A stretch of DNA of 64,000 bases from Pseudomonadota bacterium. GTDB taxonomy: Bacteria > CALINM01. The stretch spans positions 62,001-126,000 of the forward strand of contig JAOABK010000002.1 in assembly GCA_026418415.1 (NCBI GenBank). Reading direction: 5' to 3'. Both the position numbers and the translations under genes were made by a program. Shown piece by piece: positions 28,077-62,833 of this stretch. Positions within the stretch are counted from its first letter, which is position 1; every line of letters starts with the position of its first letter. The notes under the pieces were generated by a model, which was not told the origin of the DNA, made no database searches, and worked only from the letters and a program-made list of their open reading frames with translations.

Positions 28077-28958
28077 ATGCACAGAATTCTTGAAAAAATA
28101 TATTATGAAGTTAGAGCACCAAAGATTGATTTTAAAGATATAGGCGGTTTATTTGATGTTAAAAAGAAGGTTGATGAGTTAATAGTCTTTCCTATTACAA
28201 AGAGAAAAGAACTATTAGATATGGGACTTGAGTTGCCAAAAGGGGTAATACTATGGGGGCCTCTTGGTGTTGGTATGACAATGCTTGCTGAAGCTGCAGC
28301 TTATAGGGCAGGAGTTACTTTTGTTTATGTTTCTGGACAGGAGGTTTTAAATAAAAAAGATGCTTTAAGAGAAGCAATTGATACTGCAATTTCTGAAGCG
28401 CCATGTGTCCTATACATATCCGATTGTGATTGGATTGTACCAAGACCTAATTGTAATTATGAGTGGGGACATGGAAATCTAAGAGGTAAACCACCAACCT
28501 TTAGCGATGATGAATTTCGCCTTTTTTTTATCAGTGAAATTGATAGAGTCCAGCAATATGATGAGGTTAGGTTAATTGGAGGATGTTATCGAATAGATGT
28601 GGTTGATCAATCAATAATTAAGGAAAAGAAAAGATTTAATAGGAAAATTTATATACATCCACCGTATATAGAAGATAGGATAGATATGTTAAGAATCTAT
28701 CTTAGCAAAATTAGAAACTTAGGTAAGGATGTAAATATAGAGGAATTAGCAAGATTAACTGAAGGTTATGTAGGCTGGGATATAGAAAGTCTTTATAAAA
28801 AAGCCTCTCTCTTTGCAGTAATGGATGGAAAGGATGTTGTAGACAGAGAATCTTTTATAAAAGCTTTAAAGGATATAAAACCCTGGCTAACAAAAGATAT
28901 GATAGAAGGATATGAAAAACTTTATCAACTTGATTGTCCCCATCATTATACTTTTTAG
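28077..28958 (+). CDS. AAA+ ATPase-like protein with degenerate Walker A (Lys to Met)
   Basis: FKDIGGLFDVKKKVDELIVFPITKRKELLDMGLELPKGVILWGPLGVGMTMLAEAAA; NRKIYIHPPYIEDRIDMLRIYL; LARLTEGYVGWDIESLYKKAS. Confidence 0.82.
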   Translation: MHRILEKIYYEVRAPKIDFKDIGGLFDVKKKVDELIVFPITKRKELLDMGLELPKGVILWGPLGVGMTMLAEAAAYRAGVTFVYVSGQEVLNKKDALREAIDTAISEAPCVLYISDCDWIVPRPNCNYEWGHGNLRGKPPTFSDDEFRLFFISEIDRVQQYDEVRLIGGCYRIDVVDQSIIKEKKRFNRKIYIHPPYIEDRIDMLRIYLSKIRNLGKDVNIEELARLTEGYVGWDIESLYKKASLFAVMDGKDVVDRESFIKALKDIKPWLTKDMIEGYEKLYQLDCPHHYTF

Positions 28959-29407: not shown

Positions 29408-30361
29408 ATGGAAATTTTAAATACGATCTTTCAAGTCTTTATAACAGAATTAAAAAAGATGTGGTTTTTTACTTTGCTAAGCATACTTATTGCTGCATTG
29501 ATTAAAACCTATCAATGGGATTTAAAAATCAGGATGCTTCTTCAAAAAAAAATTAAAACAGGAATTTTTTTTGCCACCTTTGTGGGAATGGCTTCTCCCC
29601 TTTGTTCCTGTGGAATATTGCCAATAGCAATTTCCCTTGCTGCTGCAGGTGTGCCTCTCCCACCTTTAGTTTCACTTCTTTTTACTTCACCTGTAATGGG
29701 ACCAGAGGCTCTTGTTATAACCTATGGTGGTTTGGGGTTTGATTTTGCAATGGGAAAGCTCATTTTTTCTTTGTTTTTTGGTTTACTTATGGGGTTTTGT
29801 TTTTTGTTATTGCAGAAGTTTAAATATTATGATGAGAGCAGTATAAGAATAGTTCCAGTATATAATGAAAGGGGCGAACTTAAATCTTCATTTGAAATAG
29901 CTTGTGAGAATAAAATTAGAATAAAAACCATGACAGTTTTTCCAAGGGATAGTAAATTTAGGTTTTTTCTTGATAGATTTATAGATATGGGATTATTTAT
30001 TGGATCTTTAACACTTCTTGCTATTCTACTTGAAGCATTTATGTACGCCTTAGTTCCCCAGAGCATTCTTAAAGAGGTCTTAAGTTACCATGGAATTTCC
30101 GCTTTTTTTATAACTGCTTTTTTTGGTTTGTTAATTCCATTGAATCAAATTGCAGCAGTGCCAATTATAAAGGGGCTTACAAATTTAGGCATGCCTTTAT
30201 CACTTGGTATGGTGTTGATGTTTTCAGGAGCGGTAACAAGTATTCCTTCTATGATAGTTTTATACAAAATTTTTAAACCAAGGGTTTTAATATTATTTTT
30301 GTTGCTCTGTCTAATTTTTTCGATGTTAACAGGAATTATATACAATTTTTTTGTCATTTGA
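29408..30361 (+). CDS. Permease of the DUF318/SO_0444-like family (putative metal efflux)
   Basis: ASPLCSCGILPIAISLAAAGVPLPPLVSLLFTSPVMGPEALVITYGGLG; second PLNQIAAVPIIKGLTNLGMPLSLGMVLMFSGAVTSIPSM. Confidence 0.8.
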   Translation: MEILNTIFQVFITELKKMWFFTLLSILIAALIKTYQWDLKIRMLLQKKIKTGIFFATFVGMASPLCSCGILPIAISLAAAGVPLPPLVSLLFTSPVMGPEALVITYGGLGFDFAMGKLIFSLFFGLLMGFCFLLLQKFKYYDESSIRIVPVYNERGELKSSFEIACENKIRIKTMTVFPRDSKFRFFLDRFIDMGLFIGSLTLLAILLEAFMYALVPQSILKEVLSYHGISAFFITAFFGLLIPLNQIAAVPIIKGLTNLGMPLSLGMVLMFSGAVTSIPSMIVLYKIFKPRVLILFLLLCLIFSMLTGIIYNFFVI

Positions 30362-30434
30362 CGTAGTTTTGTTAGGTAAAGGTATATAAAAATTGAAAAT
30401 GTTAAAAGGCATGTTTTTTGCAAAGTAATTATTA

Positions 30435-30464
30435 TTGACATTTAATTTTTAAAGCAAATATAAT
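30435..30464 (+). promoter_or_regulatory. Consensus sigma70 promoter
   Basis: TTGACA (30435-30440), 18-nt spacer, TATAAT (30459-30464), 30 nt upstream of ATG 30495. Confidence 0.75.
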
Positions 30465-30494: not shown

Positions 30495-31958
30495 ATGAAA
30501 AAAGTTTTTTTAATCTTTTGCATCAGTTTATTGATGCCAGTTTTAACAGTATCAGCAAAAAATGTTAGTTTTAAGGATGTTTCAGAAAAAGCGGGAGTAG
30601 CCTTCAAAGGAAATGGTAAAGGGGTAGCAGTAGCAGATTACAACAATGATGGTTATTTAGATATCTTAATTTCTAACAAAGGCGGTGGTTTAAGGTTGTA
30701 TAAAAACAATGGTAATGGCACATTTACTGATGTTACAGTGGAAGTTGGTTTAGATGATGCAGGTTACTGTCTTGGGGCTGTTTTTGGCGATATAGATAAT
30801 GACGGCTGGGTTGATCTTTATGTCCCCAAAGGTGGAGTCTATGAGATTGAAACAAACCGTTTATTTAAGAATGTGAATGGAAAGTTTGTTGATATTACAG
30901 AGAAGGCTGGTGTAGCGGGTATTGTTGATGGCAAACCAGCTTTTAGTTATGGTGCAGCGATGGCTGATTATGATAAAGATGGCTTTTTAGATATTTACGT
31001 AGCTAATTATGGTCCTGGCACTAGAAATATATTATATAGAAATAATGGAAATGGTACTTTTACAGATGTTACAGATAAAGCGGGTGTTGCTAATAGAGGA
31101 TGGAGCTGGAGTGCTACATGGGCAGATGTAAATGGTGATGGCTATCCTGATTTATATGTTTGTAATGGTAGGTATCCAGCGGGAGAGCCAAATAGACTAT
31201 ATATAAATAAAGGCAATGGGACTTTTGAAGACTTGGCGGTAAAAGCAGGTGTTGCAGATGAAGGATGGACATTAGGTGCAGCATTTGCAGATGTCAATAA
31301 CGATGGATACCTTGACCTTTATACTTCAAATTATATTGGTGATAATAATCTTTATATAAATGATGGCAAAGGGAATTTTAAAAAGGTTACCTCAAATATA
31401 AAGGGTGCTCCAAAGGATCATTGGGGTAAAGGACCTTCTTTTGGTGATGTAAACAATGATGGATGGCTCGATCTTTATGAGGGTGATTGTAAATTAGCAA
31501 ATCAGCTCTATATAAATAAGGGTAATGGCAAGTTTGAAAATATTGCACAATCAGTTCCTGTAATTAAGTGTGAAACAGTAAGGACTAAAGGAACAGTCTT
31601 TGCTGATTTCAATAACGATGGTCAGTTGGATTTATATGTGGTCAACTGGGGTGCTGCAAACAAATTATTTTTGAATGAAGCTAAGAATTCAGATTGGTTA
31701 GAAATAAAGTTAGTTGGTAATGGAAAGAGTAATAAAGATGCCATAGGAGCTAAGATTTATGTTTATGATAAAAAGGGGAAACTAATGGGATTTCGTGAGG
31801 TTGTAACCGCATCTGGTTTCTGTTCCCAACCACCAAAGGTACAGCATTTTGGTCTATCAGCTAAGGATACTTATGATGTAAAGGTTATTTTCCCATCTGG
31901 TAAAGAGGTTGTAAAGAAAGATGTAAAAACCGCTCAAATATTGACAATTTCGGAATAA
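30495..31958 (+). CDS. Exported FG-GAP/VCBS repeat protein with C-terminal ASPIC/UnbV-like domain
   Basis: Signal peptide; seven DxNxDGxxD loops (DYNNDGYLDI, DIDNDGWVDL, DYDKDGFLDI, DVNGDGYPDL, DVNNDGYLDL, DVNNDGWLDL, DFNNDGQLDL); C-terminal DWLEIKLVGNGKSNKDAIGAKI. Confidence 0.88.
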   Translation: MKKVFLIFCISLLMPVLTVSAKNVSFKDVSEKAGVAFKGNGKGVAVADYNNDGYLDILISNKGGGLRLYKNNGNGTFTDVTVEVGLDDAGYCLGAVFGDIDNDGWVDLYVPKGGVYEIETNRLFKNVNGKFVDITEKAGVAGIVDGKPAFSYGAAMADYDKDGFLDIYVANYGPGTRNILYRNNGNGTFTDVTDKAGVANRGWSWSATWADVNGDGYPDLYVCNGRYPAGEPNRLYINKGNGTFEDLAVKAGVADEGWTLGAAFADVNNDGYLDLYTSNYIGDNNLYINDGKGNFKKVTSNIKGAPKDHWGKGPSFGDVNNDGWLDLYEGDCKLANQLYINKGNGKFENIAQSVPVIKCETVRTKGTVFADFNNDGQLDLYVVNWGAANKLFLNEAKNSDWLEIKLVGNGKSNKDAIGAKIYVYDKKGKLMGFREVVTASGFCSQPPKVQHFGLSAKDTYDVKVIFPSGKEVVKKDVKTAQILTISE

Positions 31959-31980: not shown

Positions 31981-32019
31981 AAAAGGGAAGCCTGATTTTA
32001 TAGGGCTTCCCTTTTTTTT
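31981..32019 (+). terminator. Rho-independent terminator
   Basis: AAAAGGGAAGCC tgattttatag GGCTTCCCTTTT with an 8-T run; perfect stem. Confidence 0.88.
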
Positions 32020-32047
32020 GGCTTGTTTTTTGATTAATAGATGAAAT

Positions 32048-33031
32048 ATGAAAGGATTAATTTTTTTATTTTTAATATTTTTTTCCAATTTCGAAGCACT
32101 TGCTTTTAACATTAATGTTAATTTACATTACGAAAACACTAAACTTTTAAAAGATGTTAGGGTTTGTTTTTGGGAAAAAAAATCTCTGATTTATAGTGAT
32201 AAGCCCTCTTTTTGTGTAAGTTCTGACGAAAAGGGTAATGCTGATATAGATTTGCCTTCGGGAGAATACTATGTTTTTGCAGAAAAAAAGCTTGCAAATA
32301 AATATTTGTTTGGCTTTTACGGTTTAAATCCTTTGAATGTATCGAAAAGTAAAATTTTAAATATAAATTTAATAGATTATCCAGATGTATTTATAAAAAA
32401 AACAAAATTTAGAGGCATAAAAGGGAAAGTTTTATATAAAGGTCAACCAATCAGGGAGGCTGAAGTACTTGTATATATTGATACAAGTACTGAATTTAAG
32501 GGCCCTCCTTTTCAATATGCTAAGTCAGATGAAAAAGGTGAGTTTAATATACCTCTCGAAGAAGGCAGTTATTATCTATTTGTAAAAAAGAAAAGAGAGC
32601 CCTTTGGACCACCAAAAGTAGGTGACCTTGTAGCCTTTTTCCCGCAATTTCCAATAATTATAAAGGGAAAGGAAGGTTATGAATTAAGCATTGAGATGAT
32701 GAAGGTTTCTGAGAAGATTTCTCAATCATTTAATAAATTGATAAGGATTTATGGTAATGTAAAAGATAAAAAGGGAGCTTATTTAAAGAATGTTTATGTA
32801 GTGGCTTATAATACTTCTGAAACTCTTGGTAAACCTAAGTATATCTCTTCTTTGACAGATCAAGAAGGGAGATTTTCAATATTTATTAAAGAAGCGGGAA
32901 GATACTATCTGGTTGTTAGAAAAAATTTAGGTGATACACCAGATATTGATGATGTTTATGTATATGGAGAGATAGAAATTAAGGATGAAGATGATAAGAA
33001 GATCGATATTATTACAGATTTTGATAGTTAG
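32048..33031 (+). CDS. Exported three-module carboxypeptidase-regulatory-like protein (paralog 1)
   Basis: Signal peptide; three Ig-like modules each ending in a GxYYxxx strand; GPPKVGDLVAFFPQFP in module 2. Confidence 0.7.
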   Translation: MKGLIFLFLIFFSNFEALAFNINVNLHYENTKLLKDVRVCFWEKKSLIYSDKPSFCVSSDEKGNADIDLPSGEYYVFAEKKLANKYLFGFYGLNPLNVSKSKILNINLIDYPDVFIKKTKFRGIKGKVLYKGQPIREAEVLVYIDTSTEFKGPPFQYAKSDEKGEFNIPLEEGSYYLFVKKKREPFGPPKVGDLVAFFPQFPIIIKGKEGYELSIEMMKVSEKISQSFNKLIRIYGNVKDKKGAYLKNVYVVAYNTSETLGKPKYISSLTDQEGRFSIFIKEAGRYYLVVRKNLGDTPDIDDVYVYGEIEIKDEDDKKIDIITDFDS

Positions 33032-34769
33032 TTTTTTGACAAATTTTATTTTTTTTGTCAGTTATTCCTTAGCTGATCTTTTCTACTATCATGGAGATAA
33101 AATTAGTAAAAACACCGAATGGCGAGGAAGAGTTTTTATTAAGGGGACATTATATATAGACAAGGGTGTGGAATTAAAGATAAGCCCCGGTACTAAAATA
33201 TTATTTAAGAAACTTGATGTAGATAATGATGGAGTTTCCGAAAGTTTAATAATATCTTCTGGGACTATTAAAGCTGTGGGAGAAAGAGAAAATCCCATAA
33301 TGTTCACTTCTGATGAAATTAATAAGAACTGGGGGGATTGGAGAGAAATTCAAATAAACCACGCGAGAAATATACACTTTGAATATTGCATTTTTGAATA
33401 TGGTGAGTATGCGCTGCATATTCATTTTTCTGAAGGGATTATAAGGAATTGTATTTTTAGAAATAATGCTGATGGAACAAGAATAGGTAATGCAAAATTA
33501 GAGATTAAAAATAATCTTTTTGAGAAAAATATAGGCAAAGCCTTGAATTTTACAAGTAGTAAGTTAATAATCTCAAGAAATACAATTAGAAATAATAGAG
33601 ACGGACTTTTTGTATTTGAAAAATCTGGCGAAACGATTATTGATGAGAATAACATTTATGATAATCATGCAAATATCAAAGTTGGGGATTTTTTTCAAGG
33701 AAAACTAAGAATTGGAAAAACCTTTGTGAATAATACTTTAGATCTCCAAAAAGAAATTAGCATTGAAAAACTGGAAAGACCTATCTTAGGAGCTATGCCA
33801 AATATCAAAGATGCCTATATAATTTATAATATTGATACTGATGGATTTGTTGATGGTGGTTTGGGTATATTTAATAATGTTGCCTATATTCCATCATTTG
33901 ATGGAAATGTTTACGAAGTGAATTTAGATTCAGGGAGCTACTTAAAAATCCTTGTCAATGATTTTACTGATTCTGTCCCTGCCATAGATGAAAACAACGT
34001 GTATATTCTTACTTGGGATGGAATTATAAGAGCAATTGATAGAAAAAATAAAAAGATAATATGGCTGGATAAATTTAATCCTTCATTGAAAGATGATCAT
34101 AGAATGGCAAGTCCCATATTATATGAAGAGTATTTAATTGCTATAAGTCAGGGAGGGCATTTCAAAATTATTAATAAGTCTAATGGGAAAGTTATTTTTG
34201 ATGCTGTTTTTAATGGAGAGTTTAGGGCAACTCCTTTGATTTTTGAAAAGAATATTTTTCTTCCTTCTGTTACTGGAGATCTTTACAAAATATCTCTTAA
34301 AGATTTCAATATTCATAATAAAAAATTTGATGTTAATTTTTATAGCACCCCTATTGTGTACAATGGTTTAATTTATCTTTTAGGCAGTAATGGTAAACTA
34401 ATTGGTATAGATGTAGATTTGAATATAAAAAAATATCTTGAATTAAAAGGGCATTTTCGCTATCAAAGCCCAGTAGTTTTTAAAGATAAAATAGTTTTAT
34501 TTTCCCTTGATGGATATATATATGAGATATCTTCAGACAAGATAGATAATTACAAAAAAACAGACTATATATTTACAGCTACACCAATTGTTTATGATAA
34601 CATATTTATTTTAGTCCCAACTTTTCAAGGAGAGTTGGTATTCTTTGATGGTGTGAAAACCTTTAATATAGGAAATTTTGGGGAGATCCAATTTAGCCCT
34701 GCAGTTTATGGCGATAAAATAGTTTTTGGCACGAGGAATAATAAAATATATGCTATCAAAATTTGGTGA
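32985..34769 (+). CDS. Exported right-handed beta-helix protein with C-terminal PQQ-like beta-propeller
   Basis: NNLFEKN.../RNTIRNNRDGLFVF coils; propeller blades AIDENNVYILTWDGIIRAIDRKNKKIIW, IVYNGLIYLLGSNGKLIGIDV, AVYGDKIVFGTRNNKIYAIKI. Confidence 0.78.
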   Translation: MKMIRRSILLQILIVSFLTNFIFFVSYSLADLFYYHGDKISKNTEWRGRVFIKGTLYIDKGVELKISPGTKILFKKLDVDNDGVSESLIISSGTIKAVGERENPIMFTSDEINKNWGDWREIQINHARNIHFEYCIFEYGEYALHIHFSEGIIRNCIFRNNADGTRIGNAKLEIKNNLFEKNIGKALNFTSSKLIISRNTIRNNRDGLFVFEKSGETIIDENNIYDNHANIKVGDFFQGKLRIGKTFVNNTLDLQKEISIEKLERPILGAMPNIKDAYIIYNIDTDGFVDGGLGIFNNVAYIPSFDGNVYEVNLDSGSYLKILVNDFTDSVPAIDENNVYILTWDGIIRAIDRKNKKIIWLDKFNPSLKDDHRMASPILYEEYLIAISQGGHFKIINKSNGKVIFDAVFNGEFRATPLIFEKNIFLPSVTGDLYKISLKDFNIHNKKFDVNFYSTPIVYNGLIYLLGSNGKLIGIDVDLNIKKYLELKGHFRYQSPVVFKDKIVLFSLDGYIYEISSDKIDNYKKTDYIFTATPIVYDNIFILVPTFQGELVFFDGVKTFNIGNFGEIQFSPAVYGDKIVFGTRNNKIYAIKIW

Positions 34770-37113
34770 AAAAAGAACTTTAAATATTTTTTACCTCTCC
34801 TTTTCTGTTTTAACCTTCGAATTACTTTTAACAAGGATATTCTCTGTTCTTATGTGGTATCACTTTGCTTCGCTTGCAATTGGAATTGCAATGTTAGGTC
34901 TTGGTTTAGGCGCTGTGACTGCTTTTTTATTTAAGAACAGATATGATAAATTCTTTGAAATAGCATTTTTAATGTATATTTTTTATTTTCTTATCTTACA
35001 TTTACTTTTCTTTTTATTACATCAAAATACAGAGGTTATTCTGCCCTATTTATCTTTCTTTCATCAACCATATTTTCAACCCTTTCAGAGAGGTGTTTTT
35101 TATAGCTTTAATTATAGTTTGTTAATAGGTATAGTTATTTTCTACATAATTATTTTAGTACCCTTTGTAGTTGCAGGATATTTAATTTCTTGTATTTTTA
35201 GAATGTATTCCCTTGATTCTCAAAGGCTTTACTATTCTGATATGTTTGGTGCAGGCCTTGCTTCAGTTTTTCTTGCTATTTCTTTGTATCTAATAAATCC
35301 CATGTCTGTTTTTTCTCTCCTATCTCTAATTGGGATTTTCATTTACTACTTAAATGTAAAAAGAAAGATACTTTTTCTACCAGTAATGCTAATATCCCTT
35401 TCATTATTGTATGCAAGTATTGTTTTTAAAAAAGATGAAATTATGATTGCGCGGGGAAAACTCCAGAAAAATATAATCTGGTCAAAATGGAACCCCTTTT
35501 CCAGAGTAATAGTTTATCCCTTGAAAGATGAAGAAAAAGTTAATCCCTTTGGACAAAGCCCCCTTTATAGAGGGTATATTCCAGATCAGTGGGGTGTGCT
35601 CGTTGATGATACCGGTTATACTGTGGCAAGTGAATTTCCAGACAAAGCTGAAAAAAAAGAATTCTTTAGATGGAATATAGTTTCTCTACCCTATACAATT
35701 CGAACCGGATCAACTTTAATAATAGGTCCTGGTGGCGGTAAAGACATAAACTGCGCAATTAGTATGGGAGTTGGAGGAAATAGTATTAAAGCTGTTGAGT
35801 TAAACCCTCAAGTTGTAGAGGCAGTAAATGAGGTATTGGGAGAAAAAACTGGAAAACTATATAGTCAAGTTAAAACTTACATTAAAGAGGGTAGGAGTTT
35901 TTTAGAGAGAGACAAAGAAAAATATGATGTCATACAAGCCACATCAGTTTACGGAAGAATTCCACCTGCTTCTGGTATTTTTACCTTTGCAGAGGATAAC
36001 TTATATACATTGGAGGCTTTCATTACATATTTAAACAGGCTAAAAGAGGGAGGAGTACTTGTCCTATCAAGATTTATTTATGAAAAAACTATACCTAAAA
36101 TGGTTTTATTGTCTATAGAGGCTTTAAGGCAAATTGGTTATGAAAAACCAAATTTATCAATTTTCCTTGCACGAGAGAGAGGACTTGCCACTTTACTTGT
36201 AAAAAAGGGTTTTTTTACTCCCAATGAAGTCGAAACCCTTAAGAATTTTTGCAAAACAAGGGATTTCGAAATTCTTTATGAGCCCTTTGATAGGTATGAA
36301 AATTTTTATGGTGAATTAATTACAGGCAGTTCATCTTATAGCCTTATATTACCTACCGATGACAGACCTTTTTATTATTATAATCTGTCAAAAAAAGATT
36401 TTATGAAGTCCATTATTTTCGGTAATGATTCATTCGAAGAGAGGGGTGTTAATATTTTAAGGATATTCACTTTTTTAAGTCTGGTTTTTTCTTTTATAAT
36501 TTTTATTTTGCCCTTCTTCATTAAATCAACTGTTAAAGTTGAAGGGAAAATGAAATTAATCTCTGGGGCACTATTTGCATTGCTGGGATTTGGTTATATA
36601 CTTATAGAAATTGTAATGATAAAAAATTTCACCCTATTTTTAGAGACCCCGGTATATTCAATGATATTTGTAGTTGGTAGCATGCTTATTTCGTCATCTA
36701 TAGGATCTCTTTGTTCAAGAAATTATATAAACAGTTATAGCGATCTTAAAAAATTTTTTCTGGTACTTATTTTGCTTATTATAATTTTGAGTTTTATTTT
36801 GAAACAAATAAATCACTGGATTTATTTGCCTTTTTTGACTAAGATTGTGATTGCAGTTGCAATTGTTGGTGTTTTGGGTTTTTTTATGGGTATACCATTT
36901 CCAGTTACATTAAAGGTTTTTGGTACTTTGGAAGAAAGATTAGTAGCGTGGGGGCTATCAATTAACAGTGTCTTTTCTGTTATAGGTAGTTTTGTAACAT
37001 TAATGTTTGTAGTAAATTTTGGCTATCATATGACATTTTTAATAGGTTTTATTGTATATTTATTAGCCTTCATCACATTTCTTATTTTGAATAAAAGTTA
37101 TGTACAAAAATAA
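34750..37113 (+). CDS. Polytopic membrane protein with embedded spermidine-synthase-like domain
   Basis: N-terminal TM bundle, STLIIGPGGGKDINCAISMGVGGNSIKAVELNPQVVEAV, C-terminal TM bundle. ATG at 34750 preferred to TTG at 34726. Confidence 0.75.
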   Translation: MLSKFGEKRTLNIFYLSFSVLTFELLLTRIFSVLMWYHFASLAIGIAMLGLGLGAVTAFLFKNRYDKFFEIAFLMYIFYFLILHLLFFLLHQNTEVILPYLSFFHQPYFQPFQRGVFYSFNYSLLIGIVIFYIIILVPFVVAGYLISCIFRMYSLDSQRLYYSDMFGAGLASVFLAISLYLINPMSVFSLLSLIGIFIYYLNVKRKILFLPVMLISLSLLYASIVFKKDEIMIARGKLQKNIIWSKWNPFSRVIVYPLKDEEKVNPFGQSPLYRGYIPDQWGVLVDDTGYTVASEFPDKAEKKEFFRWNIVSLPYTIRTGSTLIIGPGGGKDINCAISMGVGGNSIKAVELNPQVVEAVNEVLGEKTGKLYSQVKTYIKEGRSFLERDKEKYDVIQATSVYGRIPPASGIFTFAEDNLYTLEAFITYLNRLKEGGVLVLSRFIYEKTIPKMVLLSIEALRQIGYEKPNLSIFLARERGLATLLVKKGFFTPNEVETLKNFCKTRDFEILYEPFDRYENFYGELITGSSSYSLILPTDDRPFYYYNLSKKDFMKSIIFGNDSFEERGVNILRIFTFLSLVFSFIIFILPFFIKSTVKVEGKMKLISGALFALLGFGYILIEIVMIKNFTLFLETPVYSMIFVVGSMLISSSIGSLCSRNYINSYSDLKKFFLVLILLIIILSFILKQINHWIYLPFLTKIVIAVAIVGVLGFFMGIPFPVTLKVFGTLEERLVAWGLSINSVFSVIGSFVTLMFVVNFGYHMTFLIGFIVYLLAFITFLILNKSYVQK

Positions 37114-38131
37114 ATTATTCTTATTTTTCCTTATTTTACTTTCCTGTTTTCATTCCGAGGAAGCTGTAGTTAATGGAAGAATTTTATTTGACGGTAAACC
37201 TGTTTACGATTGTGAGATCTCAGTATTTTTAAAAGAAGAAAAAGATAAGACCGTACCTCCAGTAAAAGTAGTTGCAACTGATGAAAATGGAGTATTTTCA
37301 ATTAAGTTGAAAAGAGGTGTTTATTATCTTAATGCGAGAAAAAGACACAACCAAGATGGTGAGGTAATAATGCTTGTTGGAGATACAAGAAAGATAGAAG
37401 TTCAAAGGGATATAAATTTAGGGGATTGGAATCTTCACTCTAAGAAAGATAGTAAAAATTTTGAAAAGGGGACTGGGATAGAAGGCAGGGTTGTGAATTT
37501 TACGGATTACTCAAAAGTTAGGATTTACATATATGACAATACTAAAACTCAGTTAAGAGGACCTGATTATGTAAGGGAAGCGAAGATAAATCCCGATGGC
37601 TCTTTTAAAATAGACCTTCCTTCTGGTAAATATTATTTAGCGGTAAGGGAAAGAGAAAAAAGATTGGCTGGCCCCCTTTCCGAAAAAGATAAGACTGGTT
37701 ATTATGAAAAAAATCCTTTTTCAGTGGAAAAGGGTATGTATGTAAAATTAGGTGAAATTAGATTAACCAATGTGGATATTAAAAAGTTACAAAAAGTGAA
37801 TGAAAGTGGAATAATAGGAGATGGTATTATTATAACAGGAAATGTATTTATAAAAGATAAAAAACTAAATAAAAAAATCTACATCCTTGCTTATGAGAAT
37901 CAAGAAATGATAGGAAAACCAGTAAGCATATCAACTGCAGATGAGCAAGGTAATTTTAAAATACTTCTACCAAAAGAGGGGAAGTATTATATAGGTGCCC
38001 GCTCAAGATTAGGCGGTCCTGTTGAACCAGGAGAGTATATTGGAGCGTATACTGGTAGTAGTGATAGGTCTATTTATGTCTCAAAGGGGAAGGAAATTAA
38101 AATTAAGATTGAGGTAAATGAGGTATGGTAA
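37100..38131 (+). CDS. Three-module carboxypeptidase-regulatory-like lipoprotein (paralog 2)
   Basis: LILLSC lipobox; modules ending GVYYLNARKR, GKYYLAVRER, GKYYIGARSR. Confidence 0.7.
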   Translation: MYKNKLFLFFLILLSCFHSEEAVVNGRILFDGKPVYDCEISVFLKEEKDKTVPPVKVVATDENGVFSIKLKRGVYYLNARKRHNQDGEVIMLVGDTRKIEVQRDINLGDWNLHSKKDSKNFEKGTGIEGRVVNFTDYSKVRIYIYDNTKTQLRGPDYVREAKINPDGSFKIDLPSGKYYLAVREREKRLAGPLSEKDKTGYYEKNPFSVEKGMYVKLGEIRLTNVDIKKLQKVNESGIIGDGIIITGNVFIKDKKLNKKIYILAYENQEMIGKPVSISTADEQGNFKILLPKEGKYYIGARSRLGGPVEPGEYIGAYTGSSDRSIYVSKGKEIKIKIEVNEVW

Positions 38132-39156
38132 AAAATATTTTAATAAATTTAATGTTAATTTTTATTTTTTCAAACATATGTTTTGGTCAGGAAAATTATG
38201 GGGTTATTAAAGGAAGAGCTGCCTATAAAGGAGAAGTCTTTTCTGGAATAAAAATTCTTGTTTATAAAGAAAAGGAGCATATTGATTTAACAAAACCCGA
38301 TATAGTAGCAGGCGAGACAAAGATTGATGGGAGTTATGAATTTTCTATTCCAGTTGGGAGGTATTATCTTGTGGCTTTAAAAAAGAAGTATAATGTTGAT
38401 AATTTCAAGCCAGAAGAAGGAGATCTTTATTGTTTTTACAGTGGAAGTCCAGTGGAGGTAGTTGAAAAGGGGATTACCTATGTGGGATTTAATCTTATAA
38501 AAGTAGGCAAAAGCAAGCCAGACAAAAAATCTAACAATTCTGGTATTTATGGAAAGGTATTTTTTGAAGGAAAAAACTTGGAAAAGTCATATATATATGT
38601 TTATAAAGACTTTAAAGGAGGTTTTAGAGGACCAGCCTTTATTGTATACCCTTCCTATGATGGGAATTTCAGTATTAATCTTCCTCCTGGTACTTATTAT
38701 ATAATTGCAAGAAAAAGGGCAAAGGGAGGTATGTACGGTCCTATAGAAGAGGGTGATTTATTCAACTTTTATCATGGTAATCCAGTTGTTGTAAAAAAAG
38801 GCTATATGAAAAATGTAGAGATTGAATGTGTTAAAAGACTCAGTCAGTTAGAAAGTGATGAGGGATATCCAATTTTAAGCGGAGTGGTTAGAGATAAAAA
38901 TGGCAAACCCTTAGCAGGAATATTTGTTCTACTCTACCATAATCGTGAAATGCAGGGAAAGCCTTTGTATATTTCAGGCAGATCTGATTCTAATGGAAAT
39001 TTTTCAATAAAAGTGCCTCCTGGAAAATATTATATATTAGCAAGGGAAAATATTGGAGGACCTCCTATTACTGGTGAATGGACTGGTAAACTTTTAGATC
39101 CCGTTAACATTGAAAGTAATGTTAAAATTCAAATCATAATGGAGAAAACAAAATGA
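38125..39156 (+). CDS. Exported three-module carboxypeptidase-regulatory-like protein (paralog 3)
   Basis: Signal peptide; GRYYLVALKK, GTYYIIARKRAKGGMYGPIEEGDLFNFYHGNPVVV, GKYYILAREN. Confidence 0.72.
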   Translation: MVKNILINLMLIFIFSNICFGQENYGVIKGRAAYKGEVFSGIKILVYKEKEHIDLTKPDIVAGETKIDGSYEFSIPVGRYYLVALKKKYNVDNFKPEEGDLYCFYSGSPVEVVEKGITYVGFNLIKVGKSKPDKKSNNSGIYGKVFFEGKNLEKSYIYVYKDFKGGFRGPAFIVYPSYDGNFSINLPPGTYYIIARKRAKGGMYGPIEEGDLFNFYHGNPVVVKKGYMKNVEIECVKRLSQLESDEGYPILSGVVRDKNGKPLAGIFVLLYHNREMQGKPLYISGRSDSNGNFSIKVPPGKYYILARENIGGPPITGEWTGKLLDPVNIESNVKIQIIMEKTK

Positions 39157-40463
39157 TGAAAAATAAAGTGAAAGTTTTATTTCTCCTGAAAATTCTTATT
39201 TTGTTAATATTATCAAATAGTTATGCAAAAGAAAACGTAATATCAGGAGAAAAAAATTATTCTGGGAATGTAGAACTTAAAGGAGATTATTTAATTAAAC
39301 AGGGAACTAAAATAAATCTACAGCCAGGTAGTGTACTTTTGTTCACTGGTAAAGTGAGATTTTCTGGTACTGTTAAAAATAAAATAATCATTAAGGGAGC
39401 CAAAGATTCTTTAGTAAGATTTGTTCAATCAGATGCAGAACTTCAAAATGTTGATATATTTGGTTTAGAAGGTATTGAATTTATTGAAAGTAAAGCCTTT
39501 ATAGAAAATCTTCAATTCAAGGATAATAAAGTGGGATTGAAAATAGTTCGAAATTCACAGGCTTTTGTAAAATCAACTATATTTACGGGAAATGAGATTG
39601 GCCTTGCTGTGGAGCTCAAGTCAAATTGTAAAATAGAAGACTCAAAATTTGATAAAAATGAAGCAGGTATTGTTTTAGGACAACAGGGCTTATGTGAAGT
39701 TTTTAGAAGCCTTTTAAATAATAATAAAGTTGGGGTATTTATCAACAGAGATAGTTTAGCTAATATTATGGGGTCTAAGTTCACTGAAAATGTTAAGGGT
39801 ATAGATGTTTATCAGAACATAGGAAGCAAAATAACCGCTAACACTTTTACTAAAAATAAAACTGGTATTTTTGGTGAAGCTTTTTCTCAGATCGACATTG
39901 AAAAAAATGATTTTATAGAAAATGAGACTGCTATTGATTTTTTGCAAGTGGTCACCGGTAAAATTAGAAATAATATTTTTAAAAATAATAACACTGCAAT
40001 ATTATTGGAGAAGAAAAGTGCACCAGATATTAGAAATAATACTTTTGAAGGAAATGAGACAGGAATTATATGCAATTTTTCTTCCTATCCTGTAATTACA
40101 AAAAACAACTTTTTGAATAATAGATTTCATATAAAATTAGGGGAATTCCAATCAGCAGATTTTGAAAACAGGACAGGCTCGTTGACTATACAATTAAAAG
40201 AAGTTGTGGAAAAACAAAGTAGAAGAAGTGGACAGTTTACAGAAAAACAAAAAAAAGTTTACTCTGGAGAAGTATTTGCAAAAAACAATTATTGGGATGA
40301 GAATACAGTAAAGGAATTTAAAACAAAAGAAAATGTATCCACTATATACGATGGGTTTGATTTGAAAGAGGTCACCTATGAAGGTTATGGTGATCAAAAA
40401 TATGCAATAGATAAGGTAATTTATAAACCATATTTAACAACACCTGTTAAAATTAATAAATGA
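39153..40463 (+). CDS. Exported right-handed parallel beta-helix (NosD-like) protein
   Basis: Signal peptide; repeated coils (ITANTFTKNKTGIFGEA, IRNNIFKNNNTAILLE, IRNNTFEGNETGIIC); NNYWDEN near the C-terminus. Confidence 0.8.
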   Translation: MMKNKVKVLFLLKILILLILSNSYAKENVISGEKNYSGNVELKGDYLIKQGTKINLQPGSVLLFTGKVRFSGTVKNKIIIKGAKDSLVRFVQSDAELQNVDIFGLEGIEFIESKAFIENLQFKDNKVGLKIVRNSQAFVKSTIFTGNEIGLAVELKSNCKIEDSKFDKNEAGIVLGQQGLCEVFRSLLNNNKVGVFINRDSLANIMGSKFTENVKGIDVYQNIGSKITANTFTKNKTGIFGEAFSQIDIEKNDFIENETAIDFLQVVTGKIRNNIFKNNNTAILLEKKSAPDIRNNTFEGNETGIICNFSSYPVITKNNFLNNRFHIKLGEFQSADFENRTGSLTIQLKEVVEKQSRRSGQFTEKQKKVYSGEVFAKNNYWDENTVKEFKTKENVSTIYDGFDLKEVTYEGYGDQKYAIDKVIYKPYLTTPVKINK

Positions 40464-41470
40464 GATATTTATTTTTCTTAATTTTTTATGCTTTTTTAGT
40501 ACAAGATCTTTACTCCCATGAGGTAAAGGGTAGGGTAGTTTTTAAAGAAAATACACCTGTTTTTGGTGCTAATGTAAACATTTATAATGAGAATAGAGAT
40601 ACTAAAATATTGAGCACTACTACCGATCCAGAGGGGTATTTTAATATAAATTTAGAAGAAGGGGTTTATTTTTTTGAGGCCACATATGTTGAAAAAAATA
40701 GAAGATTTGTTGGATATAGCGGTAAAAATCCCTTACTTGTATCGGGTAGTGAATATATTGGCATTAGGCTTCTTCCCTTGTATAAATTTAAGGAACAAAA
40801 GGTCAAAAATAATAAAACAAAGGTTATAGGTCAGGTTCTTTTTGAAGATAAGCCATTAAAGGATTCTATAGTTTATTTCTATCTTTCTGGAAGGGATATT
40901 AAAGGCATGCCCTATGTTTATTCTATGCCAACAAACAAAAAAGGTTTTTTTGAAATCAATGACATTTTGCCGGGTAAATATTTTATTGTAGCGAGAAAAA
41001 AGATTAGTGGTAGTCTTTTTGGCCCAATTGAAGAAGGCGACTTTATAGGATTCTTTCAACATAATCCTATAAACCTTGAAAAGGGTAAGGTATATAGCAT
41101 AGTAATTCCAGTTTTCAAAAAGGTTCAAGATGACGTGCCTATTCAAGTTTCCGCTAAATATAAAATCACAGGATACGCAATAGATGAAAAGGGAAATCCA
41201 GTTTCAGGAGTATATGCCTTTGCATATAAAAATAAAGAGATGGGGCACGAAAGGCCTATAAGTATTTCAAAAAAGACAAAGAAAGATGGGTATTTTGAAT
41301 TGCCTATTCCTGAAAGTGGTAAGTATTATATAGGTGTAAGGCAATTTTATGGTGGTACACCATTACAAGGAGAGTTATATGGACTCTATGAACAAACTTA
41401 TGATCATCATATCTATGTAGATAAAAACATTGAAAATATTAAAATTACTGTTAGAAAAATTTTAAGATGA
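40460..41470 (+). CDS. Exported three-module carboxypeptidase-regulatory-like protein (paralog 4)
   Basis: Signal peptide; GVYFFEATYV, GKYFIVARKKISGSLFGPIEEGDFIGFFQHNPINL, GKYYIGVRQF. Confidence 0.72.
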   Translation: MRYLFFLIFYAFLVQDLYSHEVKGRVVFKENTPVFGANVNIYNENRDTKILSTTTDPEGYFNINLEEGVYFFEATYVEKNRRFVGYSGKNPLLVSGSEYIGIRLLPLYKFKEQKVKNNKTKVIGQVLFEDKPLKDSIVYFYLSGRDIKGMPYVYSMPTNKKGFFEINDILPGKYFIVARKKISGSLFGPIEEGDFIGFFQHNPINLEKGKVYSIVIPVFKKVQDDVPIQVSAKYKITGYAIDEKGNPVSGVYAFAYKNKEMGHERPISISKKTKKDGYFELPIPESGKYYIGVRQFYGGTPLQGELYGLYEQTYDHHIYVDKNIENIKITVRKILR

Positions 41471-42315
41471 AAGTTTTGAATATAATTTTTTTTATTATAA
41501 CTACTGTTAATTGTCTTTATGCTAAAAATTTGCCAGTTAAAGAGATTTTCACAGAAGAGGTATGGAGGGGAGAAATATTAGTAGAAGGAGTGGTTGCAGT
41601 AAGAAAGGAAGGTAAGTTAACAATAGAACCAGGCACAGTAATTCTTTTCAAATCTATTGATATAGATGACGATGGTATTGGTGATAGTGAACTTTATGTA
41701 GAAGGGACAATTATTGCAAAGGGAAGTAAAGATGCTCCAATAGTATTTACATCAGAAAGTAATGATAAAATCCCCTCTTCATGGAAGTATATAATGGTTA
41801 ACCATGCAAAATATGCCTATTTTGAGCATGTACTATTTGAAGGTGCCTTTTCGGGGCTCCAAGTACATTTTACCAAGGCAATAGTTAAAAACTCAATATT
41901 TAGAAACAATGTTGATGGCTTTAGATTTTCAACAGCTAATATTTATGTTTGTAATAACAAAATGACTAAAAATCGTCATGGTATAAGGTATGAAGAAAGG
42001 GATTCAAAAGGTATTATAGAATTCAATTCCATACAGGAAAATGAAATAGGAATTTTTCCTGTAACTAAATGTGGTGATAAAGTAAATTTTAGGTATAACA
42101 ATATAGAAAAAAACGGTTATAATATAAAAGTAGGAGATGAGCAAAAAGAAAATTTATCTTTCAAAAATAACTATTTTGGTATGATTTTTGAGAGTGAAAT
42201 TAGAAAAAAGATTTATGACAAACATTTTGATAAAAATTTACCAATTGTTAATATTAAACCCTATTCAAAAAAACCTTTTTTGGAGAGTGATGTTAAATGT
42301 TTAGAAGAATTTTAG
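41467..42315 (+). CDS. Exported short beta-helix protein, paralog of the N-terminal half of 32985-34769
   Basis: EVWRGEILVEG...EPGTVILFKSIDIDDDGIGDSELYVEGTIIAKGSKDAPIVFTSE aligns by eye with TEWRGRVFIKG...SPGTKILFKKLDVDNDGVSESLIISSGTIKAVGERENPIMFTSD. Confidence 0.75.
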   Translation: MKVLNIIFFIITTVNCLYAKNLPVKEIFTEEVWRGEILVEGVVAVRKEGKLTIEPGTVILFKSIDIDDDGIGDSELYVEGTIIAKGSKDAPIVFTSESNDKIPSSWKYIMVNHAKYAYFEHVLFEGAFSGLQVHFTKAIVKNSIFRNNVDGFRFSTANIYVCNNKMTKNRHGIRYEERDSKGIIEFNSIQENEIGIFPVTKCGDKVNFRYNNIEKNGYNIKVGDEQKENLSFKNNYFGMIFESEIRKKIYDKHFDKNLPIVNIKPYSKKPFLESDVKCLEEF

Positions 42316-42836
42316 TAAGTTTATTACTCTTTTTTTGCTTTTATGGGATCTCCAATGCCTGTGTTGGTAAGACAATTTATATAGGACATCTTGATACTAA
42401 AGAAGAAGAAATGGTTAGTAATATTCTATCAAGGCTTATAACAGAAAGAACGGGCACATCAGTTAAGCTAAAAAAATATTCAAATGTAAGCGCTTTACTC
42501 AATTCAGCATCTTCAGGTGAAGTAGATTTATTTGTTTTTGACAGTAATAAAATAAATGAACTTTCTAAAACAACTGATTTTGAAAAAGCAAAAAGTGATT
42601 TCAACACTAAATTTAATCTCGTCTTTTTAAAACCCCTTTTAGAATCTAAAAGCGATTATACAGTTCCAATAATAAGGAAGGATACTTTAAAAAAATTTCC
42701 TGCTCTTCCAAGACTCATTGAAAAACTAAATGGACTTGTTCAACCATCTGTTATATCAGACCTTGTTAAGGACTCTGAAAAAAGGGGTACCAAGGATACA
42801 GTTAGGGATTTTTTAAAATCAAAAAATTTAATATAA
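42297..42836 (+). CDS. Exported OpuAC-like (glycine betaine SBP) domain, apparently missing lobe 2
   Basis: Signal peptide; KTIYIGHLDTKEEEMVSNILSRLITERTG; SSGEVDLFVFDSN; VPIIRKDTLKKFPALPRLIEKLNGLV; VRDFLKSKNLI. Confidence 0.6.
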   Translation: MFRRILVSLLLFFCFYGISNACVGKTIYIGHLDTKEEEMVSNILSRLITERTGTSVKLKKYSNVSALLNSASSGEVDLFVFDSNKINELSKTTDFEKAKSDFNTKFNLVFLKPLLESKSDYTVPIIRKDTLKKFPALPRLIEKLNGLVQPSVISDLVKDSEKRGTKDTVRDFLKSKNLI

Positions 42837-42839
42837 CTT

Positions 42840-43721
42840 ATGGAAAGAAGAAATTTTTTAAAAGTTATTGGCTCAAGTTTTTTGTTTAATTTAATTGGGG
42901 CTAAATTTGTTCTACCCTCAGATCCAAAGGTACTTTCAGTTGCAGAAGGAAAGGATTATGAAAAAATTACTAAGGATGCTATTAATGCTATTGGAGGCAT
43001 ATCCAAATTTGTTAAACCAGATGATGTTGTAGTTATAAAACCAAACATTGGCTGGGATAGAACCCCTGAGCAGTCAGCAAATACACACCCCCTTGTTGTT
43101 AAAGCGATTGCCGAAGAATGTATAAAAGCAGGTGCAAAGAGGGTAAAGATTTTTGACAGAACCTGTAATGATCCAAGAAGATGTTATGAAACAAGTGGTT
43201 TTAATGCGGTTTTTAGAAATATGAGGAAGGTTGAATTAAAACATATTGAGTATGAAAGATTTAAGAATGTAAAGCTTAACGGTAAGTTTTTGAAAGAATG
43301 GGAGCTCTATGATGAGGCATTAAATGCAGATGTTTTCATAAATGTTCCTGTAGCAAAGCACCATGGATTAACAACCCTTACCTTGGCTTTAAAGAATGTT
43401 ATGGGGATAATGGGTGGAAACAGGGGATATATTCATAGAGATATTGAAACCGCATTAGCGGATATAAATTCTGTTGTTAAGAGCCATTTAACTATAATTG
43501 ATGCTACAAGGATTCTTTTAAATCATGGGCCTCAGGGTGGAGATTTAAAAGATGTTAAAGTATTGAATAGAGTGGTTGCATCTGCAGATATTGTTTTAGC
43601 GGATGCTTACGCAACAACATTCTTTGGTAAAAAACCAGAAGAAATTTCTATAACCGTTGAAGCCTTTAAGCGTGGACTTGGAGAAATGCGTTTATCCAAT
43701 GCGAAAGTGATAAAGGTCTAA
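42840..43721 (+). CDS. DUF362 protein with Tat-type signal
   Basis: MERRNFLKVIGSSFLFNLIG twin-arginine motif; DDVVVIKPNIGWDRTPEQSANTHPLVVKAIAEECIKAGAKRVKIFDRT. Confidence 0.85.
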   Translation: MERRNFLKVIGSSFLFNLIGAKFVLPSDPKVLSVAEGKDYEKITKDAINAIGGISKFVKPDDVVVIKPNIGWDRTPEQSANTHPLVVKAIAEECIKAGAKRVKIFDRTCNDPRRCYETSGFNAVFRNMRKVELKHIEYERFKNVKLNGKFLKEWELYDEALNADVFINVPVAKHHGLTTLTLALKNVMGIMGGNRGYIHRDIETALADINSVVKSHLTIIDATRILLNHGPQGGDLKDVKVLNRVVASADIVLADAYATTFFGKKPEEISITVEAFKRGLGEMRLSNAKVIKV

Positions 43722-45256
43722 TGAAAAGATTAAATCTTTCTAAAATATCTCAGTTTTTTTTTCTAATTCTTTTTCTTTTTTTATTTGTAAACACAGAATA
43801 TAGGGGTAAAGATGAAATATCTTTAGCTATTAACAGTTTTTTTAGAGCAAATCCCCTTGTTTTATTTTCCTATATATTATCGAATTTTTCTTTTACCTGG
43901 ATACTTTTCCCTGCCTTACTTTTAACTTTTTTCAGTTTTTTTTTGGGTAGATTTTTTTGTGGATGGATCTGCCCTCTTGGCACGACCATAGATTTTTTTT
44001 CAAAGTTTTTTAGAAAAAAAGAGAAGAGAATATTTCATCCCCATCTTAAATATTATCTATTGGGATTCCTCTTGTTTGTGTCTCTTTTTGGGATTAATAT
44101 CACAGGGCTTTTAGATCCAATAGCAATTCTTGTTAGATTCTTGACTTTTACCGCCTTCCCTTTGTTTGGAGATATTGTTAAATCAGGCTGGGTGGGGTTG
44201 TATGAGATACTCGGTGAAAAAAGGGATTCTATTGCATTTCTCTATGATTTTTTAAAATCCAACATTCTCCCCTTTAGGGAAACGATATATCCTCTTGCTT
44301 TTGTTTCGTTCTTTATTTTTATAGTAATTCTTATACTTGAAAAGTTTGAGAAAAGAAGCTGGTGTAGGAATCTTTGCCCCCTTGGGACTCTACTTGGATT
44401 ACTAAGTAAATTTTCTATTTTTAAAAGGTTACCACAAAATCTATGCAAGGATTGTGGAGATTGTAAAAGTATTTGTCCCACTGGATTCGAAAAAGATCTT
44501 TTACAAAGAGAAGAGTGCATATTATGCATGGATTGTGAATTTAAGTGTAAGTTCAAAAGAGTTAGATTCAATATAGCAATGAAACCAGACATTGAAACCA
44601 GTTTTTCTAAGCGAAGGGTTTTTATAACAAGCTTTATAACTGGTTATTTTGTTTCTGGTGTTTTTAAATTTTTTAGAGATGGTCATGATAGTAGATTGCT
44701 AAGACCACCGGGTGTTAAAGATGAAAAAGTTTTTTTGCAAAAATGTGTTCGATGTGGTGAGTGCATCAAGATTTGCCTCAAAAATGCTTTATATCCCGCT
44801 GTTTTCACAAATGGCTTTTATAATCTTTTTACGCCTATTTTAATACCAAGGAAAGGGTATTGTGAGTATAATTGTACCTTGTGTGGACAGGTATGTCCTA
44901 CCAAAGCAATTCCTCAACTGCCTTTAGAAACTAAACGAAAAGAGGTTATTGGTATTGCAGTTTTTGATAAAAATCATTGTTTGCCTTACGCAAAGAAGGT
45001 AAACTGTATGGTGTGTGAAGAGCATTGTCCTGTTCCAAAAAAGGCGATAAGATTTGAGGTTGTTTATGAAAGGGATTATGATGGGAAAATGAAAGAGTTA
45101 AAAAAACCCTATGTTGTTGATGAATTATGTATAGGTTGTGGTATATGTGAATATATATGTCCTCTTACTTCAAAGGCTGGCATAGAGGTTTTTAAGAGTA
45201 AAGAATTAAGTAGGAGTGATATTTATGGCTATAATGGAAATTCTAAAATATCCTGA
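43721..45256 (+). CDS. NapH-like membrane ferredoxin fused to a NapG/MauM-like polyferredoxin
   Basis: CGWICPLGTTIDFFSKFF, CRNLCPLGTLLGLLSKF, CKDCGDCKSICP, then internal SKRRVFITSFITGYFVSG, then CVRCGECIKIC, CTLCGQVCP, CMVCEEHCP, CIGCGICEYICP. Confidence 0.82.
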   Translation: MKRLNLSKISQFFFLILFLFLFVNTEYRGKDEISLAINSFFRANPLVLFSYILSNFSFTWILFPALLLTFFSFFLGRFFCGWICPLGTTIDFFSKFFRKKEKRIFHPHLKYYLLGFLLFVSLFGINITGLLDPIAILVRFLTFTAFPLFGDIVKSGWVGLYEILGEKRDSIAFLYDFLKSNILPFRETIYPLAFVSFFIFIVILILEKFEKRSWCRNLCPLGTLLGLLSKFSIFKRLPQNLCKDCGDCKSICPTGFEKDLLQREECILCMDCEFKCKFKRVRFNIAMKPDIETSFSKRRVFITSFITGYFVSGVFKFFRDGHDSRLLRPPGVKDEKVFLQKCVRCGECIKICLKNALYPAVFTNGFYNLFTPILIPRKGYCEYNCTLCGQVCPTKAIPQLPLETKRKEVIGIAVFDKNHCLPYAKKVNCMVCEEHCPVPKKAIRFEVVYERDYDGKMKELKKPYVVDELCIGCGICEYICPLTSKAGIEVFKSKELSRSDIYGYNGNSKIS

Positions 45257-49568: not shown

Positions 49569-50414
49569 ATGAAAAAGATTACAGAAGAACAGATAATTGA
49601 GGCTATTAAAAACCTTTTTCTTGATGCAGGGAAGTTTCTTCCTGAAGATGTTTACTGTGCTTTTGAAAATAGTTTAAAGGTCGAGGAATCGCCTTTAGGA
49701 AGGGCCGTACTTGAACAATTAATTGAAAATAAGAAAATTGCTGAAAACGATGGTATGGCGCTTTGTCAGGATACGGGATTTGCTGTAGTATTTGTAGAAT
49801 GGGGCACAAGAGTTATTTTTGATGGTAAAGATTTATTTGAAGCAGTAAATGAAGGTGTTAGAAGGGCATACAAAGATGGTTATTACAGGAAATCAATAGT
49901 TAACGATCCCCTTTTTGATAGAAAAAATACAGGTGATAATACCCCCTGTCTTCTTCATTTTGAGTTTGTGCCTGGTGAAAACGTTAGAATTATTGCTGCA
50001 CCCAAGGGTGGTGGTAGTGAGAATATGAGCGCAATAAAGATGTTAAGACCAGCAGACGGTGTTGAAGGTGTTAAGAGATTTGTTATTGAAACTGTTGAGA
50101 AAGCGGGAGGCAATCCCTGTCCGCCTATTATTGTTGGGGTTGGGATTGGTGGTACCTTTGAGAAATCAGCATATCTCGCTAAAAAGGCTCTTTTAAGAGA
50201 AATTGGTGAGCATAACAAAGATGATAGATATGCTAATTTAGAAAGGGAATTGCTAACAGAGATAAATAAATTAGGTATTGGTCCAATGGGTTTTGGTGGT
50301 AGGGTTACAGCACTTGCAGTGAATATCGAATATTACCCTTGCCATATTGCAAGTTTACCTGTGGCTGTGAATATTCAGTGCCATAGCGCAAGACATAAAG
50401 AGGTAATCTTATAA
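49569..50414 (+). CDS. Class I fumarate hydratase, alpha subunit (TtdA-like)
   Basis: ALCQDTGFAVVFVEWG; GGGSENMSAIKML; PPIIVGVGIGGTFEKSAYLAKKALLR. Confidence 0.93.
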   Translation: MKKITEEQIIEAIKNLFLDAGKFLPEDVYCAFENSLKVEESPLGRAVLEQLIENKKIAENDGMALCQDTGFAVVFVEWGTRVIFDGKDLFEAVNEGVRRAYKDGYYRKSIVNDPLFDRKNTGDNTPCLLHFEFVPGENVRIIAAPKGGGSENMSAIKMLRPADGVEGVKRFVIETVEKAGGNPCPPIIVGVGIGGTFEKSAYLAKKALLREIGEHNKDDRYANLERELLTEINKLGIGPMGFGGRVTALAVNIEYYPCHIASLPVAVNIQCHSARHKEVIL

Positions 50415-51485: not shown

Positions 51486-51494
51486 GAGATAATT

Positions 51495-53980: not shown

Positions 53981-53998
53981 GTATTTTTGGGGGGCATT

Positions 53999-54412: not shown

Positions 54413-54476
54413 TTTTATGTGGCAAAGACTAAGAATTTTAAAGTTTCATGTAATAATTTACAAAAAGGGGATTTAA

Positions 54477-55361: not shown

Positions 55362-55373
55362 GGGAGTAGAAAG

Positions 55374-57323: not shown

Positions 57324-57327
57324 AGGG

Positions 57328-61255: not shown

Positions 61256-61266
61256 TGGAGGATAAA

Positions 61267-61689: not shown

Positions 61690-61707
61690 AAACACGAGAG
61701 GTAGAAC

Positions 61708-62814: not shown

Positions 62815-62833
62815 ACTTTAGGAGGATAGATAT

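Follow-up and report, generated by a model that had tools for sequence, protein, structure and literature searches.

A conserved envelope operon linked to the GeoRSP radical SAM genes and to a small VHPC peptide gene

We asked what purpose is served by an operon of eleven genes for exported and membrane proteins at 32048-45256 (+) of a 64,000-nucleotide (nt) stretch of contig JAOABK010000002.1, hereafter the window, which comes from a 2.0-Mb metagenome-assembled genome (MAG) with 31% GC and two close relatives in the comparison set. An earlier note on this DNA had proposed an undescribed envelope assembly fed by a membrane ferredoxin module. The explanation that we favour, with a probability of about 0.6, is a peptide-maturation system in which the GeoRSP genes would form the cytoplasmic core and the operon, together with the four genes AAA, FmdE, ArsP and FG-GAP, the envelope arm. 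In what follows, genomes, contigs, loci and families are numbered with G, C, L and f, respectively.

All eleven open reading frames (ORFs) of the earlier note were confirmed on the same strand, with junctions, in gene order, of -47, -44, -14, -7, -4, -4, -4, -19, +3 and -1 nt. Its counts of nine exported proteins, two membrane proteins and no CXXCH motif also held for the whole set: a signal peptide is present in CpR1-4, BH1-3 and OpuAC and a twin-arginine translocation (Tat) motif in DUF362, SPM (14 predicted transmembrane segments, TM) and NapGH (5 TM) are the membrane proteins, and CXXCH is absent from all eleven. Pfam backs most of the domain labels that it had given. CpR1-4 match carboxypeptidase-regulatory/DUF4198 (transthyretin-like) domains; BH1-3 match beta-helices, BH1 and BH2 also NosD, and BH1 also a PQQ-type propeller; the remaining genes match OpuAC, DUF362 and a polyferredoxin, which NCBIfam resolves as a fusion of NapH and NapG. 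Two labels stood only in part, as the OpuAC match covers only about one lobe and the spermine-synthase match of SPM is weak and under its cut-off. The canonical spermidine synthase catalytic motif is D-x-x-D-P. SPM as a spermidine synthase was rejected: it scores 20.3 bits in Pfam (cut-off 22.9) and 23 in NCBIfam (cut-off 260) and has ATSVYGR at the position of the catalytic motif, with [AS][ST][AS]V[FY]G common to the SPM members of the operon. Members of this 14-TM spermidine-synthase-like family are found in many phyla in unrelated contexts, with another active-site motif, of the VDSWAA type (L006-L026, e.g. L036:8981-15837).

Is this gene order conserved, as the earlier note had demanded of a real system? 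In a genome of the same family and another genus (G002) all eleven genes stand in the same order, with ZnR-AAA-FmdE-ArsP-FG-GAP in front and peptide deformylase and formyltransferase genes downstream, the latter two being present in the window alike. The recurring unit reads AAA-FmdE-ArsP-FG-GAP-(CpR1)-BH1-SPM-CpR2-(BH)-CpR3-BH2-CpR4-BH3-OpuAC-DUF362-NapGH. Its order is kept in G002, in family f109 (G110 and G373) and in Desulfuromonadales-type MAGs (G386, G387, G388, G390 and G394, with most of the unit in G399), in which six MAGs the unit is seen in part and spread over separate contigs or loci. Identity to distant relatives is roughly 25-60%, and the records of the hosts are labelled Deltaproteobacteria, Desulfuromonadales, Geopsychrobacter, Geobacter and Deferrisomatales MAGs. 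The start of the unit has to be moved, from CpR1 at 32048, where the earlier note had placed it, to AAA at 28077, with which the conserved unit begins in relatives. Judged by this order, AAA, FmdE, ArsP and FG-GAP belong to the system, despite the terminator-like hairpin that precedes CpR1. A chance neighbourhood was rejected because the order recurs in distant families and the unit co-occurs with the GeoRSP core (see below). Anti-phage defence was rejected as well, as PADLOC gave only a weak IetA-type match to AAA. The features of the region, with approximate gene starts, are:

28077..28958, + strand, AAA ATPase, CDC48/PAN-like (Pfam AAA, NCBIfam); it heads the operon in L126-L130, L135, L138, L142 and L143
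28934..29404, + strand, FmdE-domain protein (Pfam FmdE, 97.6 bits), position kept in relatives
29408..30361, + strand, ArsP_1-type permease (Pfam, 140.7 bits), position kept in relatives
at 30407, weaker sigma-54-like site AGGCATGTTTTTTGCA in the gap before FG-GAP
30435..30464, + strand, sigma-70 promoter TTGACA-18-TATAAT (12/12 consensus), 5' of FG-GAP
30495..31958, + strand, FG-GAP/ASPIC propeller (CRTAC1-like), exported
31982..32020, + strand, terminator-like hairpin GGGAAGCC...GGCTTCCC followed by T8, between FG-GAP and CpR1 (read from the sequence)
32048..33031, + strand, CpR1, exported, with repeated transthyretin/carboxypeptidase-regulatory domains
32985..34769, + strand, BH1, exported, NosD-like beta-helix and PQQ-type beta-propeller (Pfam)
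34726..37113, + strand, SPM, 14 TM, spermidine-synthase-like Rossmann domain without the canonical D-x-x-D-P
37100..38131, + strand, CpR2, lipoprotein (lipobox LLSC)
38125..39156, + strand, CpR3, exported
39153..40463, + strand, BH2, exported NosD-like beta-helix (Pfam)
40460..41470, + strand, CpR4, exported
41467..42315, + strand, BH3, exported beta-helix (Pfam)
42297..42836, + strand, OpuAC-like short periplasmic binding protein
42840..43721, + strand, DUF362, Tat-exported (RRNFLK), LarA-like fold
43721..45256, + strand, NapH-NapG fusion (NapGH)

Of all these proteins FG-GAP is the best conserved, with 54-80% identity between phyla.

In the two f109 genomes the gene order continues beyond the operon. 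Directly 3' of NapGH are ResB, a histidine kinase, a sigma-54 regulator, EB_dh (a heme-binding domain), CpR5, a HEAT lipoprotein and NapH2 (a second NapH-like protein), followed by PhnD, a small membrane protein, YedE, PqqD, a radical SAM protein, a SPASM protein and a cysteine desulfurase. The order of this second cluster recurs adjoining TIGR04303 in many genomes, and in the window genome the cluster is found not on the window's contig but on C69 (locus L113). Compact loci mix genes of both halves (L280, L281 and L122); in L280 the order is OpuAC, ResB, BH, DUF362, BH, CpR, BH, BH, PhnD, YedE, ArsP, PqqD, radical SAM, SPASM. Read from these arrangements, the window operon makes up half of a larger system, the other half of which is contiguous in some genomes and lies elsewhere in the window genome. 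The radical SAM protein is the GeoRSP family TIGR04303 of NCBIfam (cut-off 400 bits), with 421.3-421.7 bits in G110, 420.7 in G373 and 409.8 in G002; the protein of G001, which is of the same genus as the window genome, scores 385.6 and the window genome's own copy (G000), truncated at the contig end, 270.6, both under the cut-off. The proposal of an envelope assembly fed by a ferredoxin module is partly upheld: the envelope operon is conserved, so that it survives the refuting condition set in the earlier note, and its NapH-NapG fusion could feed electrons, but it is not self-contained.

The two clusters also appear to share their regulation. Sigma-54-like sites (TGGYAY-N5-TTGCT type) were found 5' of AAA in 8 of 12 loci and 5' of EB_dh in 8 of 10, against a background of 1.4% at 285 other genes, and both clusters are likely under sigma-54 control.

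We then compared the distribution of the two halves. The CpR profile and TIGR04303 each mark 12 of 386 genomes, and these are the identical 12, from seven families; ten of the 12 have a strong OpuAC match (E<1e-50), and no other genome does. Among the 244 genomes of one class, 73 have both, 4 only TIGR04303, 7 only CpR (six of the seven being 70-82% complete) and 160 neither, an agreement of 233/244 (Fisher p ~1e-48, not corrected for phylogeny). TIGR04303 is present in all 27 operon-type genomes and absent from the three genomes (G026, G044 and G037) that have only an SPM paralog or the DUF362-NapGH pair. The two loci also decayed together. In G001, ∼12.9 kb of the operon locus is gone (C42, L045), AAA is fused to CpR4, and BH3 carries a nonsense codon and a frameshift; a DNA search of this genome found no second copy of the lost region. 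In its second cluster (C214, L116) only fragments of RR, EB_dh, CpR5, Opu2 and BH6 are left. This joint decay supports the view that both loci belong to one system, and from gene order and distribution the operon is very probably the envelope arm of a GeoRSP system.

What could such a system act on? Small conserved ORFs were sought near the radical SAM gene, and the search was extended to 3.3 Mb of DNA. It yielded 21 different genes, each 17-20 codons long, from 20 of the 27 GeoRSP genomes, with the pattern M-K-x(0-3)-[YF]-x-[KR]-P-x3-G-x3-V-H-P-C-stop, in which neither the Pro at -12 nor the final H-P-C varies and the end is V-H-P-C except for one IHPC. Each gene is preceded by a purine-rich ribosome-binding-like site, and the pattern had no match in shuffled DNA. 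No Pfam or NCBIfam model matches the peptide, sequences this short being hard for such tools. The gene follows the radical SAM gene in the window's own family (G001, MKYIKPKTLGISTVHPC; G002, MKYVRPKAKGISSVHPC) and in others too, in f109 it sits within the operon, with SPM before and CpR2 after it (G110 and G373; L094, MRKVRYIRPRLVGTSSVHPC, and L095), and it is beside FG-GAP in L139, L141 and L144. G399 and G402 carry the gene next to FG-GAP but have none behind the radical SAM gene, which is what one would expect if a single copy is enough. The VHPC peptide is probably a precursor that is modified.

Some of these genes have other neighbours. In L139:9816-21186, from an uncultured Geobacter MAG, the FG-GAP ortholog and the VHPC peptide gene are followed by a 3116-aa open frame with 45 CXXCH that runs off the locus. 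Two further VHPC peptide genes are in L121:16269-19999, directly after an open frame with 17 CXXCH, and at L289:3509 (G310), adjoining B12-type-radical-SAM-like genes.

Could the operon nevertheless be two unrelated neighbours, CpR/BH surface proteins and a separate redox module, which merely happen to be on one transcript? The DUF362-NapGH pair does occur alone, and G001 retains it after losing most else. Because G026, G044 and G037 have only that pair or an SPM paralog, without TIGR04303, DUF362-NapGH is a reusable module. The order kept across distant families, the co-occurrence with GeoRSP, the peptide gene inside the operon in f109 and the compact joining of DUF362, CpR, BH and GeoRSP genes in L280 all speak against an accidental association, which we consider highly improbable. 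Stand-alone pairs were seen at L050:8168-10713 and L051:8869-11504, in genomes without GeoRSP; in L051 a second DUF362-like gene follows.

What the sequences show is membership of the system, conserved order, co-occurrence, the presence of the peptide gene and likely sigma-54 control; in the working of the favoured peptide-maturation system that follows, peptide modification, export, redox activity and every protein-protein step are inferred. A precursor of 17-20 residues ending in V-H-P-C would be made and handed by the PqqD-like chaperone to the radical SAM/SPASM enzyme, which, assisted by the SPASM-domain partner, would modify the VHPC end, while YedE, PhnD and the cysteine desulfurase may handle the supply of sulfur (or selenium). 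The product would arrive in the periplasm, where the short OpuAC-type, NosD-like beta-helix, propeller and CpR proteins would hold, assemble or use it. NapGH would move quinol electrons across the membrane to the periplasm, with the Tat-exported DUF362 (LarA fold) as its likely partner. The outcome would be a peptide-derived redox or metal-binding envelope factor, with a logic like that of pyrroloquinoline quinone (PQQ) or mycofactocin and a periplasmic part like that of Nos maturation. That the GeoRSP product is a redox or metal factor is, for now, a tentative suggestion; that an exported, radical-SAM-modified VHPC peptide serves as a new cofactor in a dedicated envelope machine (CpR, beta-helix, LarA-fold DUF362 and NapGH) is more doubtful still.

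The proteins that would take part in the last steps can be described further. NapGH has two CX3CP motifs, motifs for six [4Fe-4S] and an internal RR motif before the NapG half; both halves score under the curated cut-offs of the separate NapH and NapG models. With these features it resembles the NapGH quinol dehydrogenase, and it is likely to be one, but it is a single fused protein with a DUF362 partner and has no NapA, NapB or NapC nearby. The OpuAC-like protein has 179 aa as compared to the usual 270-300 aa, roughly one lobe, and an invariant Cys-Val-Gly at its predicted mature N-terminus. The two-lobe OpuAC/type F fold (∼270 aa) was not found in it, as profile and model cover about half of its PDB matches; the model corresponds to a shortened choline/ergothioneine-type binding protein. 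For DUF362 (predicted model, pLDDT 89.5), all structure matches at E<=0.001 (19/19) are of the LarA family, and a PDB sequence search gave no match. Its Tat motif RRxF is kept in 19 of 19 relatives, and H175-x9-K185-x13-H199 is invariant in them. The cofactor residues of LarA nickel-pincer enzymes are of the Arg75/Lys184/His200 type. DUF362 and LarA are in one Pfam clan, and LarA1 uses His174, Lys184 and His200 (PMC11770544); by spacing and fold only, H175, K185 and H199 might correspond to these residues, which we offer as a lead. In contrast to LarA (∼420 aa), DUF362 has ∼290 aa and is Tat-exported.

These same proteins would also suit the maturation of a periplasmic metal-sulfur site, similar to what NosR/NosD/NosL do for nitrous oxide reductase; the peptide would then be a carrier or a ligand. 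The system has six NosD-like or beta-helix proteins, two NapH-type polyferredoxins, the YedE sulfur/selenium transporter and the cysteine desulfurase, and DUF362 has the fold of LarA, a Ni-S pincer enzyme, with the invariant His-Lys-His pattern. However, there is no nosZ-like client, NosFY-like ABC pair or NosL in the loci read (loci, not whole genomes), the LarA correspondence is one of fold and spacing, and the BH proteins may be plain scaffolds. We consider this reading unlikely. NapGH, NapH2 and EB_dh, as redox modules, could instead belong to an envelope electron conduit from the quinone pool to a surface route (extracellular electron transfer), cytochrome-poor or cytochrome-linked, in which the peptide would be structural or regulatory. 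The Geobacter- and Geopsychrobacter-labelled hosts and the peptide genes beside multiheme frames in L139 and L121 would fit a conduit, but the window operon lacks CXXCH, most full-system loci are free of multiheme genes over the stretches examined, and a conduit alone leaves the peptide, PqqD, radical SAM and desulfurase unexplained, and so we give it, too, a low probability.

A role in selenium metabolism, as selenoprotein supply or a selenium-containing cofactor, is suggested by YedE, which passes the seleno_YedE cut-off of NCBIfam (341 versus 200 bits), and by the cysteine desulfurase, which is of the EF2568 family (522 versus a cut-off of 377). However, selD is absent in the system-bearing genomes G373, G088, G357 and G396 (a closed genome) and present in G026 and G037, both without the system. 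Since selD is not universal among the hosts, selenium metabolism was rejected as the purpose of the system and we regard it as very improbable. The window genome has a selD with an in-frame TGA (G000:C95:51038-51943), which suggests selenocysteine decoding in this genome and most relatives.

Several observations weigh against the favoured peptide-maturation system. No candidate for a peptide exporter was identified. In 7 of the 27 GeoRSP genomes the DNA searched did not show the peptide, and it was not seen either in the window's own genome, where C69 ends inside the radical SAM gene and 40 further stretches did not contain the remainder. TIGR04302 is the best or only match of PqqD, at 47-81 of the 100 that its cut-off demands, and TIGR04304 the best or only match of the SPASM partner, at 75 of 300 in G373, with no match in G001. 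The co-occurrence counts are phylogenetically non-independent (12 genomes are seven families), and almost all genomes compared are MAGs. The stand-alone DUF362-NapGH pairs described above belong here as well. Finally, OpuAC, DUF362, NapGH, PqqD, radical SAM, SPASM and the desulfurase are still open in G001; because this genome keeps the core without most of the rest, the system may be able to do without the CpR/BH part, or that part may be a user in its own right.

How does the system compare with what is known? The GeoRSP families (TIGR04302 PqqD, TIGR04303 radical SAM/SPASM and TIGR04304 SPASM), the second of which includes the linked cluster's radical SAM enzyme, have so far been names without an assigned function. 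The literature searched, which left out most subscription papers and all preprints, had no description of the cluster, GeoRSP or DUF362-NapH, nor of the VHPC peptide, the envelope arm and the likely control by sigma-54, in agreement with the earlier view that the system is undescribed. A short precursor, a PqqD-type chaperone and a radical SAM/SPASM enzyme are shared with PQQ and mycofactocin, and co-occurrence has been used to find the clients of such systems (PMC3023750). In contrast to these, the VHPC precursor is unrelated by eye and has no family model match, the GeoRSP radical SAM enzyme scores far under those families' cut-offs, and the envelope gene set is large. NosD-family beta-helices and NapH-type ferredoxins are likenesses to NosD/NosR. 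Further along the window (49569-63604), fumarase/succinate dehydrogenase genes precede a long series of Hdr-like genes for iron-sulfur electron transfer, unconnected with the operon system.

An orphan gene family and an isolated operon thus become one defined, testable system: GeoRSP, previously only a name, gains a candidate substrate, a compartment, some 25 partner genes and a likely regulon under sigma-54. The widespread DUF362 family, which has no assigned function, gains genomic context. Should the product prove to be a redox or metal cofactor, it would matter for envelope electron handling in Geobacter-type and related anaerobes, and the system would be a periplasmic counterpart of PQQ and mycofactocin for anaerobic respiration or metal-sulfur chemistry in Desulfuromonadales-type bacteria and their relatives.

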